Shown: positions 4,516 through 16,695 of the stretch, piece after piece
Numbering within the stretch: the stretch's first letter is position 1
Layout of the letters: the number at the start of each line of letters is the position of its first letter
Assembly: GCA_937860145.1 (NCBI GenBank)
Contig: CALMBF010000195.1
Span: forward strand, 1-34,415
Length of the DNA stretch: 34,415 nucleotides
Direction of reading: 5' to 3'
From: an uncultured Geobacter sp.
GTDB taxonomy: Bacteria > Desulfobacterota > Desulfuromonadia > Geobacterales > DSM-12255
The notes under the pieces: generated by a model
The model's input: the letters and a program-made list of their open reading frames with translations, nothing else
What the model was told of the DNA's origin: nothing
The model's database searches: none
Position numbers and translations under genes: made by a program

Positions 4516-7500
4516 TCAGTGCTTCATCCCGCTATACTTCAACGTCCCTTTCCTCAGTTCCCTCTTCTTCATCAGCACGAAGATCACCGGCGTCATGATG
4601 AGGACATGGATTGCCGAGGATACCATGCCGCCGATCATGGGTGCGGCGATCGGCTTCATCACGTCGGCCCCGGTGCCGCTGGACCACATGATCGGGACCA
4701 GACCAAGGAGCGCCACGGCCACGGTCATCAGCTTGGGGCGCAGGCGGAGCACCGCCCCCTCGAAGGTGGCGTCGTAGATATCCTGCTCCGTGACCGGTCC
4801 CGTGAGGAGCTTCTTGTCCAGGGCCTCGTGGAGATAGATGACCATGACCACCCCCGTCTCCACGGCGATGCCGTAGAGGGCGATGAACCCGACCCAGACC
4901 GCCACCGACATGTTGTAGCCCAGGGCGGCCACCAGGTAGATCCCCCCCACCAGGGCGAAGGGGACGGAGAGCATGACCATGCTTGCCTCAAGGGCCGAGT
5001 GGAAGGTGAAGTAGAGAAGGATGAAGATGATCAGCATGCCGGCCGGCACCAGCAGCTTCAGCCTCTCCTTGGCCCGGATCTGGTTCTCCCACTGCCCCGA
5101 CCAGGTGACGTAGTACCCCGGCGGCAGCTTCAGCTGTTTTTCCAGCACCTGCTTTGCTTCGGTGACGAAGCCCCCCATGTCCCTCCCCCGCACGTTGAGG
5201 AAGACGATGGAGCGGAGCAGCCCCCCTTCGGAGTTGATCTCCGGCGCACCGGTGGAGACCTTCAGCTTCGTCACCAGGGAGAGGGGGACCTGGGCACCGT
5301 CCATGCCGCTGACGAGGATGCGGCGGATGGCCGGGATGTTGTCCCGGTAGTCCCGCAGGTACCTGATCCGGATCGGGAATCGGTTGCGACCCTCGACGGT
5401 GGTGGAGAGCATCTCCCCGCCGAGGGCGGTCTCGATGACGTCCTGGATGTCGCCGACGGAGACGCCGTAGCGGGCCGCCGCCTCCCGGTCGATGTCGATA
5501 TCCAGGTAGTTGCCGCCGGTGACCCGTTCCGCAACCACGTCTGCCGCGCCGTTGATGGGTCTCAGGATGGCTTCCGCCCGAATCGCCAGGTCACGCAGGA
5601 CGTTCAGGTCCGAGCCGAAGATCTTCACCCCGAGGTCGGTCCGCACACCGGTGGAGAGCATGTTGATCCGGTTGATGATCGGCTGGGTCCAGCCGTTGCG
5701 CACCCCAATCTGCTGCAGCCTGGAGTCCAGTTCGGCGACGATGTCGGCTTTCCTGATCCCCGGTCGCCACTGCTCCTTCGGCTTCAGGATGATGATCGAT
5801 TCGAACATGGAGACCGGCGCCGGGTCGGTGGAGGTCTCGGCCCGCCCCACTTTTCCCAGGACGTGTTCCACCTCGGGGACGCTCTTGATGACCGTGTCCT
5901 GCACCTGGATGATCCGCTTCGCCTCGGTGATGGAGACGTTGGGGAGGGTCACCGGCATATAGAGGAGCGACCCCTCGTCCAGGGGGGGCATGAACTCGCT
6001 CCCCAGCCGCATGAACAGGGGGACGGCGATTGCCAGGGCCAGGATGTTGAGGGCGATGGTGGTCTTCTTCCAGACCAGCACCCAGCGGATGACCGGCGAG
6101 TAGAGGCGGATGAAGAAGGTGGAGACCGGGTTGGCCTCTTCCCTCGGCATCCCCCCCCGCATGAAGTAGTACATCAGCACCGGCACCAGGGTGATGGCGA
6201 TGAAGGCCGACCCCATCATGGAGAAGGTCTTGGTGAAGGCCAGGGGGTGGAACAGTTTCCCCTCCTGCCCCTCCAGGAGAAAGACCGGCACGAAGGAGAG
6301 CACGATGATGGCCAGGGAGAAGAAGATGGCCCGCCCCACCTGCTTTGCACTGGCGATGATCACCTCCAGCCGCCTCTCTTTCCGCTCTTCCGTGGAGAGC
6401 TCCGAGAGATGCCGGTAACAGTTCTCCACCATGATCACCCCGGCATCCACCAGCACGCCGATGGCGATGGCGATCCCTCCCAGGGACATGATGTTGGAGG
6501 TGACCCCCATCAGCTTCATGGTGATGAAGGAGATCAGGACCGCGATGGGGAGGGTCAGGACGATGACCAATGAGCTCTGGAAATGGAGGAGGAAGGCCAG
6601 GATGACGAGGGAGACGATGACCGACTCTTCCACCAGGGAGTGTTTGAGGGTGTCGATGGCCCGGCTGATCAGGTCGGAGCGGTCGTAGGAGACCATGATC
6701 TTCACCCCGGGGGGCAGCCCCTTCTCCAGCTCCCTGATCTTGGCCTTCACCCGGTCGATGACGTCCTTGGCGTTCTCCCCGTAGCGCATGACCACGATGC
6801 CGCCGACAGCCTCACCCTCGCCGTTCATGTCCAGCATCCCCCTGCGGATGGCGCCCCCCATCTGCACGGTCCCCAGGTTCTTCAGGTAAACGGGGGTGCC
6901 GCGCATGTCAGCTCCCACGACGATGTTCTCCAGGTCGGCGCGGGATTTCACGTACCCCTGGCCGCGGATCAGGTACTCGGCATCGGCCTGCTCGATGAGC
7001 CGGCCCCCCACGTCCTTGTTGGACGCCTTGACCGCCTCCATGATCTTCCCAACCTTGATATTGTAGGCAAGGAGTTTTGCCGGGTCGAGGTCGATCTGGT
7101 ACTCCCGGACGAGCCCGCCGATGGAGGCCACCTCAGCAACCCCCTGGACCGTGTTCAGCTGGTAGCGGACGAACCAGTCCTGCAGGGTCCGGAGCTGCTC
7201 CAGGTCAAACCCCTTCCCCTCGATGGTGTACCAGAAGACATGGCCCACCCCCGTACCATCCGGACCGAGGGTCGGGACCACGCCGGGCGGGAGGAGGGAG
7301 GCGGCGTAGTTGAGTCGCTCCAGGACCCGGGTCCGGGCCCAGTAGATGTCGGCCTTGTCCTCGAAGATCACGTAGATCATGGAGAAACCGAAGGCGCTGG
7401 AGGCGCGGACGGCGCGGACCTGGGGGAGCCCCTGCAGGTTCACCGCCAGGGGGTAGGTGACCTGGTCCTCGACGACCTGGGGGGAGCGGCCGGGATAGTC

Positions 7501-7653
7501 GGTGAAGACAATCACCTGGTTGTCGGACAGGTCGGGGATGGCGTCCACCGGGGTCTTGTAGACCGACCAGATTCCCCAGGCGATCACCAGCCCGAAGAGC
7601 ATCAGGACGATGATCCTGTTGCGGGCGGAGTATTCGATGATTTTCTCGATCAT
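4516..7653 (-). CDS. cusA: CusA/CzcA-family heavy-metal RND efflux pump
   Basis: The 1045-residue length is typical of HME-RND proton antiporters, which form the inner-membrane trimer of a tripartite Cu(I)/Ag(I) exporter. The first helix starts at once (MIEKIIEYSARNRIIVLMLF), and then come VYKTPVDAIPDLSDNQVIVF and YPGRSPQVVEDQVTYPL, standard for the family. The TM4 block AIGVLVDAGVIMVENCYRHL has the Asp/Glu proton-relay residues in the form seen in monovalent-cation (CusA) rather than CzcA pumps. The second large periplasmic loop begins after LGSEFMPPLDEGSLLYMP. The C-terminus is Lys/Met/His-rich (ends SGMKH). It is 26 nt downstream of cusB. Transcription comes from the sigma-54-type promoter before the TolC gene. 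Confidence 0.95.
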   Translation of the reverse strand: MIEKIIEYSARNRIIVLMLFGLVIAWGIWSVYKTPVDAIPDLSDNQVIVFTDYPGRSPQVVEDQVTYPLAVNLQGLPQVRAVRASSAFGFSMIYVIFEDKADIYWARTRVLERLNYAASLLPPGVVPTLGPDGTGVGHVFWYTIEGKGFDLEQLRTLQDWFVRYQLNTVQGVAEVASIGGLVREYQIDLDPAKLLAYNIKVGKIMEAVKASNKDVGGRLIEQADAEYLIRGQGYVKSRADLENIVVGADMRGTPVYLKNLGTVQMGGAIRRGMLDMNGEGEAVGGIVVMRYGENAKDVIDRVKAKIRELEKGLPPGVKIMVSYDRSDLISRAIDTLKHSLVEESVIVSLVILAFLLHFQSSLVIVLTLPIAVLISFITMKLMGVTSNIMSLGGIAIAIGVLVDAGVIMVENCYRHLSELSTEERKERRLEVIIASAKQVGRAIFFSLAIIVLSFVPVFLLEGQEGKLFHPLAFTKTFSMMGSAFIAITLVPVLMYYFMRGGMPREEANPVSTFFIRLYSPVIRWVLVWKKTTIALNILALAIAVPLFMRLGSEFMPPLDEGSLLYMPVTLPNVSITEAKRIIQVQDTVIKSVPEVEHVLGKVGRAETSTDPAPVSMFESIIILKPKEQWRPGIRKADIVAELDSRLQQIGVRNGWTQPIINRINMLSTGVRTDLGVKIFGSDLNVLRDLAIRAEAILRPINGAADVVAERVTGGNYLDIDIDREAAARYGVSVGDIQDVIETALGGEMLSTTVEGRNRFPIRIRYLRDYRDNIPAIRRILVSGMDGAQVPLSLVTKLKVSTGAPEINSEGGLLRSIVFLNVRGRDMGGFVTEAKQVLEKQLKLPPGYYVTWSGQWENQIRAKERLKLLVPAGMLIIFILLYFTFHSALEASMVMLSVPFALVGGIYLVAALGYNMSVAVWVGFIALYGIAVETGVVMVIYLHEALDKKLLTGPVTEQDIYDATFEGAVLRLRPKLMTVAVALLGLVPIMWSSGTGADVMKPIAAPMIGGMVSSAIHVLIMTPVIFVLMKKRELRKGTLKYSGMKH

Positions 7654-7679: not shown

Positions 7680-9107
7680 TCACATCTTCATATCATCCAT
7701 GTTCAGCGACTTCTTGGCCGGTGCTGGTTGTGCCGGTTGTGCCGGTTGAGGTGCCGTGTGCCCCTCGTGGCCGGCCGGCGCCGGCTGTCCCTTGGCCTCC
7801 GGCTTCATACCGGTATGCTGGCTGTGGTCCTGGCCACCCCCACCCTTGAGCTGGGACTCGGAATCGATCAGGTAGGCACCGGATACCGCCACCTTGTCCC
7901 CCGGATTCACCCCGGCGAGGATCTGGACCCTGTCGTCGCTCTGCTGGCCGACCTGGACGTCCCGGGGCTCGAACATCCCCGGCTGGCTCTCCACCCAGAC
8001 CACCCGGCGCGTGCCGGTGTCGATGACCGCGGTGACCGGCACGACGATGGCCGAGCCGAGGGGGACCTTGATGACGGCATTGACGAACATGTCCGGTTTG
8101 AGCTTCATGCCGGGATTGGCCATCTCAACCCGCGCCTTGACGGTCCTGGTCTTGGGGTCGAGGAAGGGGTAGATGTAGGCGATCCTGCCGGAAAAGGGCC
8201 GTCCCGGGAAGGACTGGGAGCGGATCTCCACTTGCTGGCCGACGTGGATATTGGGAAACTCGTTCTCGTAGACCTCCACCTCCACCCAGACCCGGGAGAG
8301 GTCGGCGATATTGAAGAGGACGTCGCCGGTATTGACGTACTGCCCCTGCTGCACCATCTTCTCGATGACCACCCCGGAGAGGGGAGTATAGATGGGGAGG
8401 CGGATGTTCGGCTTCCCCGCCTTCTCAAGCTCGGCTATCTGGCTCTCCTTCACGCCGAAGAGCATCAGCCGCTGCCGCGCCGAAGCCACGAGACCTTCGC
8501 CGCTGCCGGAGACGGAGGGGATGGGGGAATTTTTGAGCTGGTCGCGGCTCTTCACCGCCAGCAGGTACTCCTGCTGGGTGGCCACCAGGTCGGGGGAGTA
8601 GACCTCTGCCACGGGCCGGTCCCTGGAGACGAACGCCCCGACGGTGCTGACATGGAGACGGTCGATCCGGCCGGCTATCCAGGCGGTCACCTTGGCCTGG
8701 CGCGACTGGTCGAACTGGACGATACCGACAGCATTGATCTCCTTGTTCAGGGCGGACCGTTTCGCCTCCATCGTGGCCACATTGGCCATGACCCGCTGTG
8801 TCGGTGAGAGGGAGACATGGCCGAGCATCTCTGCCTGCTGTTTCTGCCCGGCGCTCTGAGCCCCCCCCTGCTCCCCGCCATCAACCTTCTTGATCAGCTC
8901 CATGCCGCAGATCGGGCAGGTGCCGGGCTTGTCCTTGACGATGAAGGGGTGCATGGAACAGGTGTAGAGGGTCTTCCCGGCGGAGGCTTTCCCCTCGCCG
9001 GCATGGTCGTGCCCCCGGTGCTGCCACGCATACCAGCCGCCACCCGCGAGGACGGCCAGGATCAGGATTAGTACCGGCACCAAGATTTTCATGTACGGTC
9101 TGCCCAT
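7680..9107 (-). CDS. cusB: CusB-type periplasmic adaptor with N-terminal heavy-metal-binding domain
   Basis: The 475-residue membrane-fusion protein links CusA to the outer-membrane channel. After one signal-anchor helix (about 6-28) there is a His-rich stretch (HRGHDH) and a heavy-metal-binding domain: YTCSMHP at 48-54 and TCPICGMEL at 63-71 (C50, H53, C64, C67). The adaptor core follows with the lipoyl/barrel pattern (GRIDRLHVSTVGAFV, IYTPLSGVVIEKMVQQGQYV, LFNIADLSRVWVEVEVYE). The tail is Met/Asp-rich (LNMDDMKM) after an Ala/Pro/Gln repeat, another likely metal-binding element. ATG 9107 has AAGGTG at good spacing. An internal ATG at 9092 is a less supported alternative. It is 13 nt after the TolC gene. 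Confidence 0.94.
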   Translation of the reverse strand: MGRPYMKILVPVLILILAVLAGGGWYAWQHRGHDHAGEGKASAGKTLYTCSMHPFIVKDKPGTCPICGMELIKKVDGGEQGGAQSAGQKQQAEMLGHVSLSPTQRVMANVATMEAKRSALNKEINAVGIVQFDQSRQAKVTAWIAGRIDRLHVSTVGAFVSRDRPVAEVYSPDLVATQQEYLLAVKSRDQLKNSPIPSVSGSGEGLVASARQRLMLFGVKESQIAELEKAGKPNIRLPIYTPLSGVVIEKMVQQGQYVNTGDVLFNIADLSRVWVEVEVYENEFPNIHVGQQVEIRSQSFPGRPFSGRIAYIYPFLDPKTRTVKARVEMANPGMKLKPDMFVNAVIKVPLGSAIVVPVTAVIDTGTRRVVWVESQPGMFEPRDVQVGQQSDDRVQILAGVNPGDKVAVSGAYLIDSESQLKGGGGQDHSQHTGMKPEAKGQPAPAGHEGHTAPQPAQPAQPAPAKKSLNMDDMKM

Positions 9108-9120
9108 GACGATTCACCTT

Positions 9121-10422
9121 TCACTTTCCGCTGTTCGTTGCCAACTCGGTCCCCACCGCCGCCTCCAGCTGGGCAAGCTTCATCATGTACTCGGCCTGGG
9201 AGTCGTACAGTTCCCGCTCGTAGTTGAACAGGGTAATCCGACTGTCCAGGAGGGTCAGGAAGTCCACCTTGTTCACCCGGTAGCCGATGACCGCCGATTC
9301 CAGTGACTGCTCGGCCTGGGGGATGATCCCCCCCCGGTAGAGCTCCACCAGCTTCCGGCGACGTTCCATCTGGGCCAGGCTGTCGTTGATGGTGAAGGCG
9401 ATCGTGTTCTGCAGGCCGTTCAGCTCTGCCGTGGCCATGCCGGTCTCGGCGGTCGACTCGGCGATCATGGCCCGCCGTCTTTCCGTCTGGAACGGCAGAT
9501 TGACGGTAACTCCGAGGCTGAACATGTCGTATCCCGGGTCCTTCGTCATCTCGGTGTCGACCTTTTCCTTGAACATGTACTCGAAGGAAACATTGAAGTC
9601 TGGATAGTACTCCTTCTCAGCCAAACGGTGCGCCGCCTCCCCCTTCTTCACCAGTTCACGCAGGCTCTTGACCTGTGGGCGCTGCTGCCCGGCCTGCTCC
9701 TGCAGCTGTTCGGCGGAGAGGGCGACCGGTGGGAGGCTGAAATCGGCGATGGGGCCGACCGGGGTGCTACCGGGACGGGAAAGCAGGTAATTGAGAGTAG
9801 CCTCCAGGCTCTTGCGCTGCTGGACGAGGGTGATCTGCATGTCGAGCATCCTGGACTTTTCCAGACCCGCCTTGTAGATGTCCTGCTGAACCCCCTGGCC
9901 AACGGAGTATTTGGATTCGGCAATGGTGACGAAATCATTCATGAGCTGCAGGTTTTTGGCTATGATGCCGAGCGACTTGTCCACTGCCCAGATCTGGTAA
10001 TACGCCTCCTTTACCATCCGGGCCAGCTCCAGCTTTCGCTCTTCCACGGCCCAGCGATAGGACTCGGCCTCGTATTCGGCCATTTCCTGCTTGATGCCCC
10101 GTTTTCCCCAGAAGGGGATTTGCTGTGAGATGCCGATCACCTTGGCCGACTGGGGGTCCTTGTCGAACACAAAGGGCTCACGGACAAGCATGTTCTGCAG
10201 CTTCACCATGACCATCGGATCGTCGAAGGAGCCGGCCTGCCTGGCCTTGGCAACGAACATATCCCAGCGGGCCCGGGATGACTTCAGCTCGGGATTGTTG
10301 GCCAGCGCCTTGTCAATAAGGGCGGGAAGGGTTTCACGGGGTACGGCGTCATCGGCATGGGCGATGCCTGCCAGGGTTGACAGGACGACAATGATGACGA
10401 GTTTGACAATCTGTAGGTTCAT
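9121..10422 (-). CDS. cusC: TolC-family outer-membrane channel of the cus system
   Basis: The product has 433 residues from ATG 10422, chosen over an upstream in-frame ATG because GAGG lies 7 nt before it and a signal peptide begins there (MNLQIVKLVIIVVLS..., cleaved near AHA-DDA). The body shows the repeated long helices and strand pairs of the outer-membrane efflux family: LPALIDKALANNPELKSSRA, later KEAYYQIWAVDKSLGI, and a second repeat near RREMIAE-like positions (LPFQTERRRAMIAESTAE). It forms the outer-membrane exit duct for CusBA. First gene of the cus transcript; predicted transcription start lies only about 25 nt upstream. Substrate metal is inferred from cusA type. Confidence 0.92.
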   Translation of the reverse strand: MNLQIVKLVIIVVLSTLAGIAHADDAVPRETLPALIDKALANNPELKSSRARWDMFVAKARQAGSFDDPMVMVKLQNMLVREPFVFDKDPQSAKVIGISQQIPFWGKRGIKQEMAEYEAESYRWAVEERKLELARMVKEAYYQIWAVDKSLGIIAKNLQLMNDFVTIAESKYSVGQGVQQDIYKAGLEKSRMLDMQITLVQQRKSLEATLNYLLSRPGSTPVGPIADFSLPPVALSAEQLQEQAGQQRPQVKSLRELVKKGEAAHRLAEKEYYPDFNVSFEYMFKEKVDTEMTKDPGYDMFSLGVTVNLPFQTERRRAMIAESTAETGMATAELNGLQNTIAFTINDSLAQMERRRKLVELYRGGIIPQAEQSLESAVIGYRVNKVDFLTLLDSRITLFNYERELYDSQAEYMMKLAQLEAAVGTELATNSGK

Positions 10423-10458: not shown

Positions 10459-10474
10459 ACAACTGCCGTGCCAA
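10459..10474 (-). promoter_or_regulatory. Sigma-54-type -24/-12 promoter of cusCBA
   Basis: The minus strand reads TTGGCACGGCAGTTGT. The -24 element TTGGCACG matches the RpoN consensus fully, and the -12 element is TTGT in place of TTGC. The GG and GT dinucleotides are exactly 10 nt apart. The predicted start is near 10447, 25 nt before the cusC ATG. The same element (one base different in the spacer and a TTGA -12 box) is found before the HMA gene. Confidence 0.68.
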
Positions 10475-10541
10475 GAGCATATCTAATTGATTTTACAGAA
10501 GGTATGGCCGTGGTTACTTCGAACGGGGCGGTGAAGATGGA

Positions 10542-10569
10542 GAATATTCTACAGGACTGATAATTATTC
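10542..10569 (-). promoter_or_regulatory. Paired GAATATTC-type boxes upstream of cus promoter (activator site)
   Basis: A perfect GAATATTC palindrome at 10542-10549 is followed exactly 20 bp away by AATTATTC (10562-10569, 6 of 8 identical). Centres fall about 98 and 118 bp upstream of the predicted start, the usual range for sigma-54 enhancer-binding proteins. The proximal box is flanked by CATCTTC, which also flanks the proximal box of the twin site at 16642-16669. Confidence 0.55.
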
Positions 10570-10592
10570 TTCACCCCCACCGTCCCCACTCC

Positions 10593-10811
10593 TTACCTCC
10601 CCGTCCCGGAACCCTGCCGGACCAGCTTCATGCCGCAGAGCGAACAGTCAGCCGTCGGGTCGCTGCTGGTGATCCACGGGTGCATGGGGCAGGTATAGAG
10701 CTCGCCGCCCCCTTGTCCCCCTGTGTCCCCGCGCTTGCCGAAGAAAAACCATAGTGTCGCGCCGATAAGGGCACTACCACCGATTGTAACGACGATTTGC
10801 ATGATGTCCAT
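10593..10811 (-). CDS. Small membrane-anchored heavy-metal-binding protein
   Basis: This 72-residue protein consists of one N-terminal membrane helix (about 4-24), a Gly-rich linker, and a heavy-metal-binding domain with YTCPMHPW (C41, H44) and DCSLCGMKL (C56, C59). That is the same small module found in the N-terminus of the CusB protein here. It probably presents Cu(I) to or accepts it from the adjacent CopA at the membrane; this is inferred from the module and position. It starts 3 nt after the copA stop codon, so it is translated from the csoR-copA mRNA. A 9-residue Gly/Ser/Arg tail ends it. Between its stop and cusC lies only the cus control region. Confidence 0.82.
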   Translation of the reverse strand: MDIMQIVVTIGGSALIGATLWFFFGKRGDTGGQGGGELYTCPMHPWITSSDPTADCSLCGMKLVRQGSGTGR

Positions 10812-10814
10812 GGG

Positions 10815-13295
10815 TCAGCTCCTTTCCACCCTGAAGCCCCGCAGCCGCAGGGCGTTGGTCACGACGCTGACCGAGGAGAGCGCCATGGCCAGGGATGCGA
10901 TGATCGGGCTGAGCAGCCAGCCGGTCAGGGGGTAAAGCACCCCGGCCGCGATCGGTATGCCCAGGATGTTGTAGAAGAAGGCGAAGAAGAGGTTCTGCTT
11001 GATGTTGGCGATGGTCGCCCGGGAAAGGGCGATGCTGGAAATGACGCCTTGCAGGTCGCCCCGCACCAGGGTGATGTCGGCTGCTTCCATGGCGACATCC
11101 GTGCCGCTCCCCATGGCAATGCCCACGTCTGCCTGGGCAAGGGCCGGAGCATCGTTGATACCGTCACCGACCATGGCAACCACCTTCCCCTGGGACTGAA
11201 GCTTCCTGACCTCCTCGTTCTTCCCCTGGGGGAGGATTTCCGCCAGGACCCGGTCGACGCCGACCTGGCGGGCAATGGCCTCGGCGGTCCGCCGGTGGTC
11301 ACCGGTCAACATGATGACTTCCAGGCCGAGGGAGTGCAGTCTCTGTATCGCCTCCCGCGCCCCCTCCTTGACCGGGTCGGCTATGGCGATAATGCCGGCA
11401 GACACGCCATCCACCGCCACGAAGACCGGGGTCTTCCCGTCGTCCGCCAGGCGGTGGGCAGCCTCCTGGTCGACCTGCAGCCCCCGTTCAGCCATGAGCA
11501 GCGCGGTTCCGATCACGATGTTCCTGTCATCAACCACCGCTTCGATACCGTAACCGGGGACGGCATTGAACGCGCGAGCCGGAGACCCGACCACCCCCCT
11601 CTCCTTCGCCGAACGGACGATCGCCTCGCCCAGGGGGTGCTCGCTCCCCGCCTCCGCCGATGCCGCCAGGCGGAGCAGTTCCCGTTCATCAACGCCATGG
11701 GCGATGATGTCCGTCACCGTCGGTATGCCGCGGGTGATGGTGCCGGTCTTGTCGAGGACGACCGTCGTCAGCTTGTGGGCCGTCTCCAACGCCTCCCCCC
11801 CCTTGATGAGGATACCGCTCTGGGCCCCCCTTCCGGTACCGACCATGATGGCGGTCGGCGTGGCAAGCCCCAGGGCGCAGGGGCAGGCGATGATCAGCAC
11901 GGAGACGAAGGTGAGGAGCGCCATGGTGGTCCGGGTCTCGACCGGTGCCAGGTCGAACCAGAGGACAAAGGTCGCGATGGCGATACAGATGACCACCGGC
12001 ACGAAGTAGCCGGCGATGATGTCGGCCAGCTTCTGGATCGGCGCCTTGCTCCCCTGTGCTTCCTGGACCAGGCGTACGATCTGCTGCAGCACCGTATCCC
12101 TGCCGATTTTCGTGGCATTCATCCGGAACGAGCCGGTCCTGTTGAGGGTCGCGCCGATAACCGTGTCGCCGCTCTTTTTCTGCACAGGCAGCGGTTCGCC
12201 GGTGAGCATGCTCTCGTCAACGGAAGATGTGCCGTCGACCACGACGCCGTCCACCGGCACCTTTTCGCCGGGGCGGACCAGGACGAGGTCGCCGACCACC
12301 AGCTCGGCGATCGGGATATCCCGCTCGACGCCGTCACGCTCAACACGTGCCGTTTTCGGCTGCATGCCGACAAGTGCCCGGATGGCACCGCTGGTCCTGC
12401 TGCGGGCTCGGGCCTCCAGCAGGCGCCCCATGAGGATCAGGGTGACGATAATGGCCGAGACTTCGAAATAGACACCAACGGCAGCCGCACCGTGCCCGAG
12501 TCCATGGCCTGCGGTGACGGTCAGCAGGGAGGGCGCGACCGTTGCGACGATGCTGTACAGGTAGGCTGACAGGGTCCCCAGGGAGACAAGGGTATTCATG
12601 TCGGCAACCCGGTGCCGCGCGGCGGCCCACGCCCCGGTGAAAAACTCACGCCCGGCCCAGAACAGGACCGGCGTGGTGAGAACCAGCTCCAGCCAGTTCT
12701 TCCCCCTGAACTCCGCGATATCGGCGAGGGCCGGCACCAGATGGCCGGCCATGGCGAGCGCGGCCACGGGGAGAGTCAGTGCCAGGGCCGCCACGAAACG
12801 GGCCTTCTGCCGGCGGTATTCCGCTTCTCGGACCCGTGACTCCGCCTCGTGCAGCCCTTCCCCCTCGATCACGTCGTCCCTGGTGTACGGTTCGATGACA
12901 TCATACCCCAGGTCACGCACGACCTGACCCAGGGACGTCACGTCCGTTCTCTCCGGATCATACCGGACGGTGGCACGGCTCGTAGCGAAATTAACCGTGG
13001 CAGCGACAACTCCCGACGAGGCTCCGAGGGCCTTCTCGATGCGACCGGCACAGGACGCGCAGTGCATCCCCACCAGGGGAAGCTCGCAACGCTCCACCGA
13101 CCCTGCTTCCGGTGGTATCGTTTCGGGAAGTTCCGAACTGCCGACGTAGCGTGCAGGATCGGCAGTGAACTGTTGCTGACAGGCTGAGGAGCAGAAGTAA
13201 TAGGTCGTGCCTTCGTGGCTCCACGTTTCAGCCGCCGCTTCAGGGGCCACTTCCATGCCGCATACCGGGTCCCGGACTACAGCTGTTGATCTCAT
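10815..13295 (-). CDS. copA: Cu(I)-exporting P1B-type ATPase with N-terminal YHS and HMA domains
   Basis: This 826-residue ATPase pumps Cu(I) from cytoplasm to periplasm. It starts with a YHS-type metal domain ([16 protein letters not shown], about 8-52), then an HMA domain with GMHCASC at 76-82. Eight membrane helices include the CPC metal site ([15 protein letters not shown], near residue 470), with the actuator motif [10 protein letters not shown] before it and the phosphorylation site DKTGTIT near 513 after it. The hinge [18 protein letters not shown] follows. The final helix pair ends in a short basic tail. ATG 13295 has GGGGAGGA upstream. It is 17 nt after csoR and 3 nt before the small metal-binding gene. 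Control by CsoR is expected from the operators upstream of csoR. Confidence 0.96.
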
Positions 13296-13312
13296 GATGA
13301 TCCTCCCCTCTC

Positions 13313-13603
13313 CTACTTCAGGAACCGCGACAGCACGGTCCGTACTTCGTCGACCAGTCCCTCCCGGGACATCGCCCGGGCCATTTCATGGGCAGTGGGC
13401 TCTCCCTGACCCAGGACGCACGACTCGAGATGCCTGGTCAGCAGTTCTATCCCCAGGGCATCGAGGGCCGAGCGGACCGCCGCTATCTGGTTGAGGATAT
13501 CCACGCAGTACCGCCTGTCGACAAGCATCCGCTCGATCCCCGCAACCTGCCCGCCGATGCGGCGCACCCGGGTCACCAGTTTTTTGTCAGCTGAGCTCTT
13601 CAT
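13313..13603 (-). CDS. csoR: CsoR-family copper-sensing repressor
   Basis: The repressor has 96 residues from ATG 13603, which has GGAGG 5 nt upstream; the longer open frame starts inside the operator and is not credible. The all-helical fold shows [17 protein letters not shown], the DNA-contact helix of the CsoR/RcnR family. The Cu(I) ligand set Cys-His-Cys is complete: C33 (RRYCVDIL), H58 and C62 (TRHLESC). This points to copper rather than the Ni/Co (RcnR) or formaldehyde (FrmR) members. In the apo form such tetramers bind GC-rich palindromes and release them on Cu(I) binding. First gene of csoR-copA-metal-binding protein, with two operator sites directly upstream, so it is probably autoregulated. 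Confidence 0.92.
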
Positions 13604-13620
13604 TGCCACCTCCGAAAATA

Positions 13621-13670
13621 AATACCCGGTGGGGGTATACTTTGAATCAAGTATACCCCCACCGGGTATT
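13621..13670. promoter_or_regulatory. Double CsoR-type operator
   Basis: A perfect inverted repeat of two 20-bp arms with a 10-bp spacer. Each arm holds its own palindrome, ATACCC, five bases, GGGTAT, at 13622-13638 and 13653-13669. This is the G/C-tract pattern of CsoR operators. The distal site fills the -35/-10 spacer of the csoR promoter and the proximal site lies just past the start point, so binding would block transcription. Confidence 0.8.
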
Positions 13671-13678
13671 AGTGTCAA
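13650..13678 (-). promoter_or_regulatory. Sigma-70 promoter of csoR-copA
   Basis: The minus strand has TTGACA (13673-13678), a 17-bp spacer and TATACT (13650-13655), close to consensus. The predicted start is near 13643, about 40 nt before the csoR ATG. One operator lies inside the spacer. Confidence 0.82.
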
Positions 13679-13723
13679 TGCGGAGTTCCCCTTAACGTGC
13701 CGTACGGTGAGGAGCGGGAGCGA

Positions 13724-13779
13724 CCATCACCCTGCGGCTCAGGTCACCGTCACCACCATACCGTCCCGCAGGGTGATGG
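13724..13779 (-). repeat. 14-bp perfect inverted repeat across the 3' end of the ABC ATPase gene
   Basis: CCATCACCCTGCGG at 13724-13737 is repeated inverted at 13766-13779. The 28-nt loop contains the stop codon. The mRNA could form a large stem at the end of the cassette transcript. No U-run follows, so it may protect the 3' end or act in Rho-dependent ending rather than as an intrinsic terminator. Confidence 0.5.
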
Positions 13780-14413
13780 TCCGGTCGGCATGGCGCCCGT
13801 TATCCGGGTTATGGGTCACCATCACCACGGTCTGGCCGGCTTCGTTAAGTTCACGGAACAGGGCCATGACCTCGTCGCTGGTTTTCGAGTCCAGGTTGCC
13901 GGTGGGCTCGTCGGCAAGAAGGATCTGGGGCCTTTTCACGATGGCACGGGCGATTGCCACCCGCTCCTGCTCGCCGCCGGAAAGCTGGTTGGGAAGACGG
14001 TCGACCTTGGCGCCGAGCCCGACCCGTTCCAGGGCCTGACGTGCAGCGTCCTTTTTCGCCGGAGTACCCATCTTCACGATGGCCAGCGGCAGCATGACGT
14101 TCTCCAGAGCGGTCAGGTACGGTATCAGGTGAAAGGACTGGAACACGAACCCCAGTTTCTGGGCACGGAAATCGGCCAACTGTTCACCGGGGAGGTCGTA
14201 CAGTCGTACCCCGGCCATCTCCACCTCGCCGGACGTGGGATGATTCATCCCCCCCAGGACCGACAACAGGGTACTCTTGCCGGAACCGGACTGTCCCATG
14301 ATAGTGATGAACTCGCCTGCCTCGATGGCGATGTTCAACCCGCGCAGCGCTTCGACGGTCTCATCGCCGCTGGCATAATGCTTGGTAAGGTTAGCTATCC
14401 TGATCAAAGCCAT
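13739..14413 (-). CDS. ABC transporter ATPase (LolD/MacB type), metal-linked cassette
   Basis: This 224-residue ATPase has Walker A GQSGSGKST at 40-48, Q-loop FVFQSFHLIPYLTALENV, signature LSGGEQERVAIARAI, Walker B ILLADEPTGNLDS and the switch His in VMVTHNPD. It belongs to the LolD/MacB/FtsE group that works with FtsX-type permeases in extraction or mechanotransmission rather than in classic import. It pairs with the permease gene 21 nt upstream. The cassette order HMA protein, DUF2318, permease, ATPase resembles the iron-linked Campylobacter p19 locus in its DUF2318-permease-ATPase part, but lacks P19 and Ftr1. The substrate is unknown; copper is suggested by location and shared promoter. 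Confidence 0.85.
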   Translation of the reverse strand: MALIRIANLTKHYASGDETVEALRGLNIAIEAGEFITIMGQSGSGKSTLLSVLGGMNHPTSGEVEMAGVRLYDLPGEQLADFRAQKLGFVFQSFHLIPYLTALENVMLPLAIVKMGTPAKKDAARQALERVGLGAKVDRLPNQLSGGEQERVAIARAIVKRPQILLADEPTGNLDSKTSDEVMALFRELNEAGQTVVMVTHNPDNGRHADRTITLRDGMVVTVT

Positions 14414-14434
14414 ATCGTTTTTCCCACTATCCTC

Positions 14435-15595
14435 TCATAACGCTCTCAACGCTTCGGTCGGGTCCATCTTCGCCGCATGAAGTGCCGGATAGAGACTGGC
14501 AAGGATCCCCAGTGTCAGAGACAGCCCGAGCGAGCCTCCGGCCACCCAGACGTCCCAGAGCAGCTTGGCGTCCTTCGCCTCGGCCATGAACGGCAGCGCC
14601 AGCCGTGCCCCTCCCATGCCGGCGCCGTAGCCGATAAAGCCGGCGACAAGGCTCACCAGGGCAGCTTCGACAAGGATGATACGCATGATATGGCTCTTGC
14701 GGAAGCCGATGGCGCGGAAGACACCGATCTCCGTTGTCCGCTCGTTAACGCTCCCCATCATGGTGACGAAGACGATGAGGGAACCGATAAAGACCACCAC
14801 ACCGGCCATGGCGTAAGAAAAACGCTTGAACTGGTCGAGGGCCTTGAGGCGACCCTCAACCACCTGCTGGATGGCCGAGACCTTGGCGTCCGGAAGCTTT
14901 TCGGCAATCTGGGTCACCATGTCGCCGATGGGGCAGCCGGAACAGAGCGCGGCAACCTCGGCCAGAGTGATCTTCCCTTCCTTGCCGAGAATCTTCTGGG
15001 CCTTGGGGAGGGAGGAGAAGACGAGGGAGTCATCCTGTGAGCCGGTCTGATCGAGAATGCCCGCCACGGTAAACGTCTCCCCTTCCAGTTCCAACTGTTC
15101 GCCGGTACCGACGCCGAGCACTTTAGCCGCATCGGTCCCCAAAAGGAGTTCGTTGGCATTCCGGGGCGATTCACCAAAAACCTTCCACCATTGCTTCATC
15201 TTCAACTCACTGTCGAAATTGACGCCGACCAGCAGGACATCGTGGCCCTTGACCCTGATCCCGCCGAGCACTTTTGGCGAGATGGCGGAAATGTTCCTGT
15301 GATTGGCGATGGTCCTGATCCTGGCGAGGTCGCTCTCCCTGATCTCCCGCTGATCGAAGCTGACCCCCCCGAGGCTGATGCCGCCATAGTTCATGGCCAG
15401 CCCGTTGCTCAGGGGGGTCACCAGGATATTGGCGCCGAACTCGTCCATCTTCCGCTCGATATCGCCGGACATGGAACGGGTCAGGGTAACCAGGGTGACA
15501 ATCGTCGCAATACCCACCGCCAGGCCGATGGTGAGAAAGGCCATCTTGGCCTTGCGGCGGAGCAGGTTGTTGACGGAGATCGTGTGCAGCTTCAT
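14435..15595 (-). CDS. FtsX/MacB-type ABC permease with periplasmic CxxC
   Basis: The 386-residue permease has one N-terminal helix (about 18-40), a large periplasmic domain (about 41-250), and three C-terminal helices, as in MacB, LolC/E and FtsX. The conserved cytoplasmic coupling stretch NERTTEIGVFRAIGFRKSHI precedes helix 3. The periplasmic domain carries a CxxC pair, C218 and C221 (AALCSGCPIGDM), which suggests metal binding or thiol exchange with the Cys-rich DUF2318 partner (inference). Its ATG overlaps the stop of the DUF2318 gene by one base (TGATG), indicating translational coupling. The ATPase gene follows after 21 nt. Only one permease is present, so it likely forms a homodimer. 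Confidence 0.82.
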   Translation of the reverse strand: MKLHTISVNNLLRRKAKMAFLTIGLAVGIATIVTLVTLTRSMSGDIERKMDEFGANILVTPLSNGLAMNYGGISLGGVSFDQREIRESDLARIRTIANHRNISAISPKVLGGIRVKGHDVLLVGVNFDSELKMKQWWKVFGESPRNANELLLGTDAAKVLGVGTGEQLELEGETFTVAGILDQTGSQDDSLVFSSLPKAQKILGKEGKITLAEVAALCSGCPIGDMVTQIAEKLPDAKVSAIQQVVEGRLKALDQFKRFSYAMAGVVVFIGSLIVFVTMMGSVNERTTEIGVFRAIGFRKSHIMRIILVEAALVSLVAGFIGYGAGMGGARLALPFMAEAKDAKLLWDVWVAGGSLGLSLTLGILASLYPALHAAKMDPTEALRAL

Positions 15596-16059
15596 CAGAA
15601 GTACCTCACCCCGCCCTTCAGGTCATCCGTCCTGATGACGATGCTCGCACCGCTCAGCTGGTGCGGCAGATAGCCGGGATTGCAGCCACCGCTGGCATTG
15701 GGACCGAGACGGCCGATGGCGAATTTCTGGTTGCAGTTCTTGCAGTTCATCTTGTCACCCTGCTGCTCATACCCCTTTTTTGACTTGTAACAGGCATCGC
15801 AGGCGTCGAAGGCGGTCTTGTAACTGCCGTCCTGTGCCTTGACCGCGAAGAAGGCGACCTCCTTCCCACTGTCCTCGAACTTGTAAAAATGGACCTTCCC
15901 GTCAGCCAGCCTGGCAACCTGCACCGTGACCTGGCCGCCATTCGCCTTGACCTTCTCGTATTTGCCCAGCGAAAATGCATACACGGATACTGCACCGACC
16001 AGAACAACCAGGACGGCAACTGCCGCCCATACCACCTGTTTGCTACGATTCCCTGTCAT
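15595..16059 (-). CDS. DUF2318 (Fe-S-membrane-like) cysteine-rich anchored protein
   Basis: The protein has 154 residues from ATG 16059, which has AGGAG 6 nt upstream. One N-terminal anchor helix (about 9-29) is followed by a periplasmic domain. The DUF2318 signature is complete: CDAC at 87-90, CKNC at 106-109 followed by the QKFAIGRLG stretch, then GGCNPGYLPH with C126. The two CxxC pairs probably bind metal or a cofactor. In Campylobacter a DUF2318 protein sits in the p19 iron-uptake locus beside FtsX-type permeases and an ATPase, and FtrD-type proteins are related. Here it follows an HMA protein (16-nt gap) and is coupled to the permease. The role is unproven. Confidence 0.85.
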   Translation of the reverse strand: MTGNRSKQVVWAAVAVLVVLVGAVSVYAFSLGKYEKVKANGGQVTVQVARLADGKVHFYKFEDSGKEVAFFAVKAQDGSYKTAFDACDACYKSKKGYEQQGDKMNCKNCNQKFAIGRLGPNASGGCNPGYLPHQLSGASIVIRTDDLKGGVRYF

Positions 16060-16075
16060 AAGTCTCTCCTTGTCG

Positions 16076-16507
16076 TCAGCCCTGTTGTTTCGTCCCGCAC
16101 CCGCCAGCGGAGCCGCACCCGCCGCATCCGCCGGCAGACGCGGCACTTTTGCCGATATCCCTGCCGGTCAGCTGCCTGAACTCGGCCGGGGTGAGCACCG
16201 TCCGTAGTTGACTGGCAAACCCTGCAGCGCTGACCTTCGCTTCAAGCACAGCCGGCGTCACCCGCTTCGTGTCGTAACCGACAACGACCCACCCTCCTGC
16301 CACATCGACCTCGGTGACCGCAACCCCCTTTTCCCGGGCGAGAGCCCTGGTAATCCGCTCCGAGCAGCTGCCGCAGGTCATGCCGGTGGTACGGAGCACG
16401 GCAACGGCATCAGCAGTAGCCCCCGTCCTGACGCGAAAGCCGAGCAGTACCAGCAAGGCAACGGCAGCAGTTACGAGCAGAACGTTGACGGCTTTTATTT
16501 TGTTCAT
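16076..16507 (-). CDS. Membrane-anchored HMA-domain protein with Cys/Gly-rich tail
   Basis: The protein has 143 residues from ATG 16507, preceded by GGAGG with a 6-nt spacer. One N-terminal anchor helix (about 5-24) is followed by a MerP/CopZ-like heavy-metal domain with GMTCGSCSERI (C45, C48), so the domain is probably periplasmic. After it comes a short helix (LTPAEFRQLTGRD), and then a Gly/Cys tail with C128, C131 and C137 (GGCGGCGSAGGCG), a second likely Cu(I) or soft-metal site. It is the first gene of the cassette with DUF2318, permease and ATPase. Transcription is predicted from a sigma-54-type promoter 18 nt upstream of the ATG. It could hand metal to DUF2318 or to the permease. Confidence 0.82.
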   Translation of the reverse strand: MNKIKAVNVLLVTAAVALLVLLGFRVRTGATADAVAVLRTTGMTCGSCSERITRALAREKGVAVTEVDVAGGWVVVGYDTKRVTPAVLEAKVSAAGFASQLRTVLTPAEFRQLTGRDIGKSAASAGGCGGCGSAGGCGTKQQG

Positions 16508-16536
16508 CCCATACCTCCACTCATGCATCCTTCCTA

Positions 16537-16552
16537 TCAACTGTCGTGCCAA
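16537..16552 (-). promoter_or_regulatory. Sigma-54-type promoter of the HMA-DUF2318-FtsX-ABC cassette
   Basis: The minus strand reads TTGGCACGACAGTTGA: a full -24 match, a GG to GA distance of exactly 10 nt, and TTGA in place of TTGC at -12. The predicted start is near 16525, 18 nt before the HMA ATG. Sequence TTGGCACG, N, CAGTTG is shared with the cus promoter at 10459-10474. Confidence 0.65.
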
Positions 16553-16641
16553 CATGCTCCACCGCCCCTAACACTCCGTAATTGTGTATGATTATAATCA
16601 CGAGCAGCGGATACGGCGCAGGAACCCGTCCCGAAGATGAA

Positions 16642-16669
16642 GAATATTCGGCACGTGTGCAGAATATTC
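16642..16669 (-). promoter_or_regulatory. Paired GAATATTC boxes upstream of cassette promoter
   Basis: Two perfect GAATATTC palindromes at 16642-16649 and 16662-16669 are spaced 20 bp centre to centre, with a GCACGTGTGC dyad between them. They lie about 120 and 140 bp upstream of the predicted start. The spacing and a flanking CATCTTC are shared with the site at 10542-10569. Confidence 0.6.
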
Positions 16670-16695
16670 CCCACGATCGCAGCAAGGGAGAGGCG

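Follow-up and report, generated by a model that had tools for sequence, protein, structure and literature searches.

The stretch analysed here, hereafter the window, is a contig of 34,415 nucleotides from an uncultured Geobacter sp. (CALMBF010000195.1; C195 in our numbering), in which two minus-strand operons lie in tandem: cusC-cusB-cusA (10422 to 4516) and a second operon (16507 to 10593) that opens with a cassette of genes for an HMA protein, an FtrD-like protein, an FtsX-type permease and an ABC ATPase. The explanation that we consider probable is that both are served by RpoN-dependent (sigma-54) promoters and switched by a single two-component system, encoded elsewhere in the genome on C19 and probably sensing copper or silver. 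Support at the level of sequence comes from the promoters, the paired activator boxes and their helical phasing, the linkage of boxes to regulator among relatives, and the domain make-up of the proteins concerned.

Promoters and activator boxes in the window

An earlier note on this DNA, made from its letters alone, had claimed two minus-strand promoters of the sigma-54 type; both sit at the positions that it gave, and at each the spacing of 10 that it reported between the GG and the -12 dinucleotide is found. The exact pattern TTGGCACG-N4-TTG occurs twice in the window, at 10460-10474 and 16538-16552, both times on the minus strand; with up to two mismatches allowed it has 12 matches, near the shuffled mean of 8.8. 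The sigma-54 consensus for the -12 dinucleotide is GC, which is present at neither promoter, one having GT and the other GA. The predicted control elements are as follows.

16638..16673, minus strand: tandem activator palindromes (predicted) of the HMA operon; both boxes exact GAATATTC, core-to-core spacing 20 bp, core 16642-16669
16537..16552, minus strand: sigma-54 -24/-12 element of the HMA operon, TTGGCACG-N4-TTGA
10538..10573, minus strand: tandem activator palindromes (predicted) of cusCBA; distal box degenerate, core 10542-10569 with 2 mismatches
10459..10474, minus strand: sigma-54 -24/-12 element of cusCBA, TTGGCACG-N4-TTGT

Exact GAATATTC is present in three copies in the window (10542-10549, 16642-16649 and 16662-16669), all inside the two control regions, and the distance from box to TGGCAC is 90 bp for the exact pair and 68 bp for the pair with two mismatches. 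Both pairs are thus where they had been described, although the cus pair is not exact: its two mismatches arise because the distal box is the degenerate GAATAATT. A flanking CATCTTC had also been pointed out, of which the CA is conserved across 57 sites in relatives and the remainder mostly is not; we reject it as a separate element, since what is kept is chiefly this CA, an arm of the longer palindrome TG-N2-GAATATTC-N2-CA. Across the whole genome (3.96 Mb) the two pairs of the window are the best. The genome search for other pairs that the note had recommended returned nine more at 3 mismatches, the reversed pattern giving 3; by the criteria used, all nine lack a sigma-54 site behind them, and they are rejected as further targets.

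Conservation and helical phasing in relatives

Comparison of upstream regions among relatives, likewise recommended beforehand, finds the pair conserved: at one mismatch or fewer, 54 of the order's 141 genomes have it, and the reversed pattern matches in just 1 of the 141. Of the 277 genomes in the class, 29 have the exact pair; each of these belongs to the order's 141, and none of the 136 from elsewhere in the class has it. A chance origin of the pairs is rejected by the reversed-pattern control together with this last result.

Phasing and targets were counted in the window and in 60 fetched stretches around listed places, which are not every place found in the order; four near-identical places in G064, one in G050, G099 and the unlisted places were left out, and of these one G064 place and the G050 place were scored, both having poor sigma-54 sites. 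The stretches and the window together hold 65 unique pairs at one mismatch or fewer. In the better orientation the sigma-54 site scores at least 8 out of 10 for 59 of the 65 pairs and at least 9 for 44; a score of 8 is reached in the opposite orientation for 3 of the 65, and random positions, taken as the best of two orientations, score at least 8 in 14% of cases and at least 9 in 2.2%. Behind 57 of the 65 unique pairs the site lies at 45-110 bp, and these distances bunch near 57, 68, 80 and 90 bp (vector length 0.79 at a period of 10.75 bp). The Rayleigh p of 4e-16 for this phasing is nominal only and overstates the case, given related sites and a period chosen by scanning. Distances phased in this manner are what an activator that needs to face the polymerase would require, and the arrangement expected of NtrC-family control, tandem enhancer-like sites on a fixed helical face upstream of a -24/-12 element, is what the 57 of 65 pairs display at their period of about 10.75 bp.

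The consensus unit across sites is TG-N2-GAATATTC-N2-CA. Among 69 unique sites at two mismatches or fewer, the TTG at -12 is followed by A at 31, by T at 20, by C at 16 and by G at 2, and the regulon therefore departs from the GC consensus. Targets were assigned to these 69 as the nearest reference match within 1000 bp of the site, an assignment that is doubtful for L122 (cassette class here, kinase gene in another assignment). By this rule 33 sites precede the HMA/FtrD/FtsX/ABC cassette and 13 precede cusC; the others stand before a His/Met-rich secreted protein (8; YtkA-like, below the Pfam cut-off), the kinase gene (2), the regulator gene (1), a P-ATPase (1) or something else (11).

Three smaller observations were made on these sites. 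Those before the His/Met-rich protein (L075:2866, L096:15811, L119:3418 and five more) always lie at 56-58 bp and have ATGC or GTGC at -12. In species of genus g12 a box and a sigma-54 site 80-81 bp from each other are found (L090, L091, L092), and the regulator copy of these species has no kinase of the family in the stretch read (L250, L254, L256). The near-identical one-mismatch pairs of G064 (four places) and G050:C1:778083, of the GAATATTCGTGCTAATTCGTGAAAATTC type, have the look of a dispersed repeat rather than of a control region.

A candidate activator and its sensor kinase

No enhancer-binding activator gene was seen in the window by the earlier note, and rightly so: no Sigma54_activat match was found on C195, and an activator encoded inside the window is rejected on that ground. 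The genome as a whole has about 30 such matches. Our candidate is an NtrC-family response regulator at C19:12683-14056, with receiver (PF00072), Sigma54_activat (PF00158) and Fis-type helix-turn-helix (PF02954) domains all above cut-off, and with a histidine kinase as the preceding gene (C19:11565-12683). Thirty activator genes were found in the stretches that contain boxes. For 26 of them (a gene shared by overlapping stretches being counted twice) the nearest protein of this genome is the C19 regulator, at 64-74% identity, its other activators reaching about 49%. Boxes were looked for at 19 loci carrying the orthologue and at 57 carrying other activators, 823 kb in all: 13 of the former have them and none of the latter, the 57 including two, L156 and L159, with a kinase of the same family.

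Of the order's 141 genomes, 113 have an orthologue of the C19 regulator, as do 51 of the 54 with boxes; among box genomes without a full orthologue, G014 has a partial match at 68%. In this genome (G000), and in G005 of the same genus and G012, the kinase-regulator pair lies behind hisS. The regulator is single copy here, no second copy having been found, and its recognition helix is the same as in relatives; in a tree of the 80 sequences kept after duplicates and rows under 420 residues were dropped, the hisS-linked copies fall among cluster-linked copies with moderate support. We regard the C19 orthologue as a strong candidate for the activator of both operons. The earlier idea of one RpoN activator for the two is thereby strengthened by the shared conserved sites and given a candidate gene, with a partner kinase, elsewhere in the genome; copper as the signal it would answer to is a reading from the neighbouring genes, considered below.

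The kinase has a short N-terminal membrane part of several helices, DUF4118-like but below the cut-off, and a core that resembles AtoS and ZraS; no HAMP domain was found among its Pfam matches up to E 0.1. Residues H28, H39 and H76 are invariant across 56 unique kinase orthologues, and H34 is kept in 45. With the helices judged by eye from hydropathy, these histidines would lie on the periplasmic side.

Which metal

Copper or silver is the likely metal, because of the methionines of CusA, the copper-type P-ATPase and the C-H-C residues of CsoR. CusA passes the TIGR00914 model of the CusA/CzcA RND family (1164 bits against a cut-off of 701), and in the alignment to 3k07 all three methionine positions, which we take to be M573, M623 and M672 in E. 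coli CusA numbering, are occupied by Met. The P-ATPase passes the copper model TIGR01511 (628.9 bits against 397) and has CPC, YN and MALSS motifs; CPC, YN and MxxSS are presumably the signature of P1B-1 copper ATPases, just as the C-H-C residues are presumably those of the CsoR copper site.

Gene organisation and a probable nested control of csoR-copA

Judged from spacing and strand, the second operon is probably a single transcription unit, and the cus control region lies directly beyond its end. From its first gene onwards, and continuing through cusCBA, the order is as follows.

16076..16507, minus strand: membrane-anchored HMA protein with a Cys-rich tail; ATG at 16507 after GGAGG
15595..16059, minus strand: FtrD-like (DUF2318, PF10080) protein; start inferred
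14435..15595, minus strand: FtsX/MacB-type permease
13739..14413, minus strand: ABC ATPase
13622..13678, minus strand: sigma-70-like promoter TTGACA-17-TATACT (13678-13650) with an overlapping dyad containing two TAC-X9-GTA (CsoR type 2) sites
13313..13603, minus strand: csoR-family repressor gene, C-H-C residues; start inferred
10815..13295, minus strand: CopA-like P-type ATPase (YHS-HMA; CPC, YN, MALSS)
10593..10811, minus strand: small protein with a heavy-metal-binding domain (HMBD)
9121..10422, minus strand: cusC (outer membrane efflux protein); ATG at 10422
7680..9107, minus strand: cusB (adaptor with HMBD)
4516..7653, minus strand: cusA (RND pump)

A longer open reading frame for the HMA gene, reaching 16555, would overlap the sigma-54 promoter. 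The cassette of HMA, DUF2318, FtsX and ABC genes described in the earlier note is present, but the operon is longer, extending through csoR, the P-type ATPase and the small metal-binding gene, and the csoR-family gene within it had been overlooked. Its product has the residues RRYC...RHLESC and passes PF02583, and it misses the cut-off of the NCBIfam RicR model (62 bits against 175). The promoter before csoR matches at 11 of 12 positions and is covered by a 48-base dyad within which both TAC-X9-GTA sites lie; passages of PMC3902906 give TAC-X9-GTA as the rule for CsoR operators. The csoR gene of G005 is preceded by a similar element, in which one site is exact and the other has X8. Since a sigma-70-like promoter is overlapped by tandem TAC-X9-GTA sites, csoR-copA seems to have a sigma-70/CsoR control of its own, and the suggestion that regulation here would be distinct from CsoR is not supported. 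In this respect the window resembles other CsoR-controlled copA operons; it differs in that csoR-copA is nested in a sigma-54 operon and in that the two operators form one long dyad.

Proposed mechanism and its alternatives

We propose that the kinase probably binds periplasmic copper or silver through its short membrane part and would phosphorylate the NtrC-family regulator, two dimers of which would bind the tandem palindromes on the side of the helix dictated by how far these lie from the -24 element. The bound regulator would activate the sigma-54 polymerase, inducing CusCBA and the HMA-FtrD-FtsX-ABC cassette. A separate sigma-70/CsoR response to cytoplasmic Cu(I) would come from csoR-copA within the second operon, an operon that periplasmic copper would turn on through sigma-54. 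We infer the binding, the phosphorylation, the metal and the service of these boxes by the displaced kinase-regulator pair of this genome.

Several findings weigh against this explanation. The pair of this genome sits behind hisS, outside the cluster and without a box of its own. G061 and G015 have a box pair and no orthologue above 49%; conversely, 87 genomes lack a pair at one mismatch or fewer, and 62 of them have the orthologue too, so that the boxes are looser, or the targets wider, than the pattern used. Only 6 of 40 further stretches centred on an orthologue (about 4.8-8.5 kb each) contain a box, the cassette promoter often being further away than such stretches reach. The -12 base is usually A or T and not C, the P-ATPase passes the cadmium model TIGR01512 as well (436.3 bits against 313.5), and of 20 kinase loci outside the order 7 show no cus gene and no P-ATPase in the part that was read.

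The alternative that survives best, though we think it rather unlikely, retains the regulator and boxes and changes the signal, which would be silver alone, another soft metal, or an envelope or thiol stress that accompanies metal exposure. The kinase core is AtoS/ZraS-like and its copper ligand is putative, the P-ATPase passes the cadmium model too, and several of the kinase loci outside the order lack a copper gene in the stretch read; however, CusA-type methionines, a copper-type ATPase and the CsoR residues occur together at this locus, a His/Met-rich secreted protein recurs as a box target, and cusA is found near related pairs in Acidobacteria and Candidatus Eisenbacteria. A second alternative, that the regulator family binds the boxes in relatives while some other activator has taken over in this genome, is suggested by the departure of the pair from the cluster, by its hisS-linked place in G000, G005 and G012 and by the number of activators available; we consider it very unlikely, given a single orthologue with an unchanged recognition helix, the position of the C19 copy among cluster-linked copies (with the moderate support noted) and the retention of boxes in all three genomes. 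Weakest is the notion that some other regulator, not of the sigma-54 kind, uses the GAATATTC pairs as its operators and that the -24/-12 matches are incidental: the boxes are AT-rich palindromes like many repressor sites, the -12 elements are imperfect, and some unannotated reading frames leave room for another recurring regulator gene, but we give it hardly any credence, since 57 of the 65 unique pairs are followed by an oriented sigma-54 site at a phased distance and none of the 57 other activator loci has a box.

Relation to known systems

Systems of the kind proposed are already known, since CorSR of Myxococcus xanthus, as described in passages of PMC3707914, is a two-component system whose sigma-54 response regulator turns on copper genes (the curA operon); the sensor differs. 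CorS is described there with a single membrane helix, a sensor in the periplasm and HAMP, whereas the membrane part of the C19 kinase is short with several helices and HAMP is not among its matches; and the CorSR genes lie in one operon with a multicopper oxidase and copA, whereas the targets here are cusCBA and the HMA-FtrD-FtsX-ABC cassette. The regulatory scheme that the earlier note set apart from CueR, CusR and CsoR accordingly has a precedent. ZraSR (HydHG), the zinc/lead system, is similar in pairing an NtrC-family activator with a membrane kinase for a metal response (passages of PMC12316311), but the C19 pair falls below the NCBIfam cut-offs for ZraR (383/760 bits) and ZraS (211/479), and the regulator also misses those for AtoC (499/714) and NtrC (464/558.6).

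The likeness to CusSR, CopRS and PcoRS lies in the two-component control of periplasmic copper defence, which for CusSR includes cusCBA. Their regulators are of the OmpR type and act at sigma-70 promoters, whereas the C19 regulator has a sigma-54 domain.

PcoRS, CopRS, DsbRS and CorE are named in portions of the review PMC10141476, which yielded no mention of NtrC or CorS. Metal-responsive activators in general are treated in portions of PMC4641369 and PMC12316311, ZraR in the latter, and no mention of copper was found in those portions; metal-ion transport genes near sigma-54 activators are likewise treated in general in part of PMC3162934, and part of PMC7726332 reports four RND systems in G. 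sulfurreducens, one of them cobalt-induced. In its main text PMC2725144, on the RpoN regulon of G. sulfurreducens, gave no match to copper, heavy metal, RND, GSU132 or GSU133, and the main text of the Desulfovibrio regulator-mapping paper gave none to GAATATTC or copper. Among open-licence PubMed Central papers we found no title or abstract on such a system.

With the C19 pair proposed for both operons, a regulator, its binding site and its targets can be named in testable form for the efflux of copper by Geobacter-type metal reducers, together with a candidate copper-sensing membrane domain that has few conserved histidines. The findings also suggest that a whole lineage, and not just Myxococcus, puts its periplasmic copper defence under sigma-54 control, and the locus would bring together two different switches, one reading periplasmic and the other cytoplasmic copper.

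Beyond the order

Loci fetched by means of the activator include three Acidobacteria contigs (one without a kinase match) and one Candidatus Eisenbacteria contig in which cusA accompanies the regulator, and a Desulfuromonas contig with the regulator and a short end of cusA; the 56 remaining, more distant activator loci (L155, L157-L211) gave no CusA match. A search with the membrane part of the kinase found matches in 96 of 395 genomes of the phylum at E <= 1e-6, many of them weak. Of the 20 kinase loci outside the order, which were picked from the better matches, 15 have a regulator with at least 50% identity and 7 have cusA.

No strict palindrome pairs were found outside the order. When the scan was loosened, 7 of 25 loci there yielded 10 sites between them and 56 control loci yielded 1; other palindromes had 0 to 3 sites in the same 25. 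Degenerate pairs before sigma-54 sites scoring at least 9 out of 11 occur in 5 of the 25 loci and in 0 of the 56 control loci; the five loci from outside the phylum set contain none. We judge it evenly balanced whether a so far unnamed sigma-54 copper two-component system with a membrane-embedded histidine sensor is an ancestral periplasmic copper switch of much of the phylum and is shared by Acidobacteria and Candidatus Eisenbacteria. RpoN would then have the role that OmpR-type CusSR has elsewhere, and the tandem GAATATTC-like enhancers would have diverged beyond the Geobacter order. At four regulator loci outside the order (L340, L342, L350 and L351), diverged boxes such as GACTATTC-N12-GACTATTC stand before strong sigma-54 sites.

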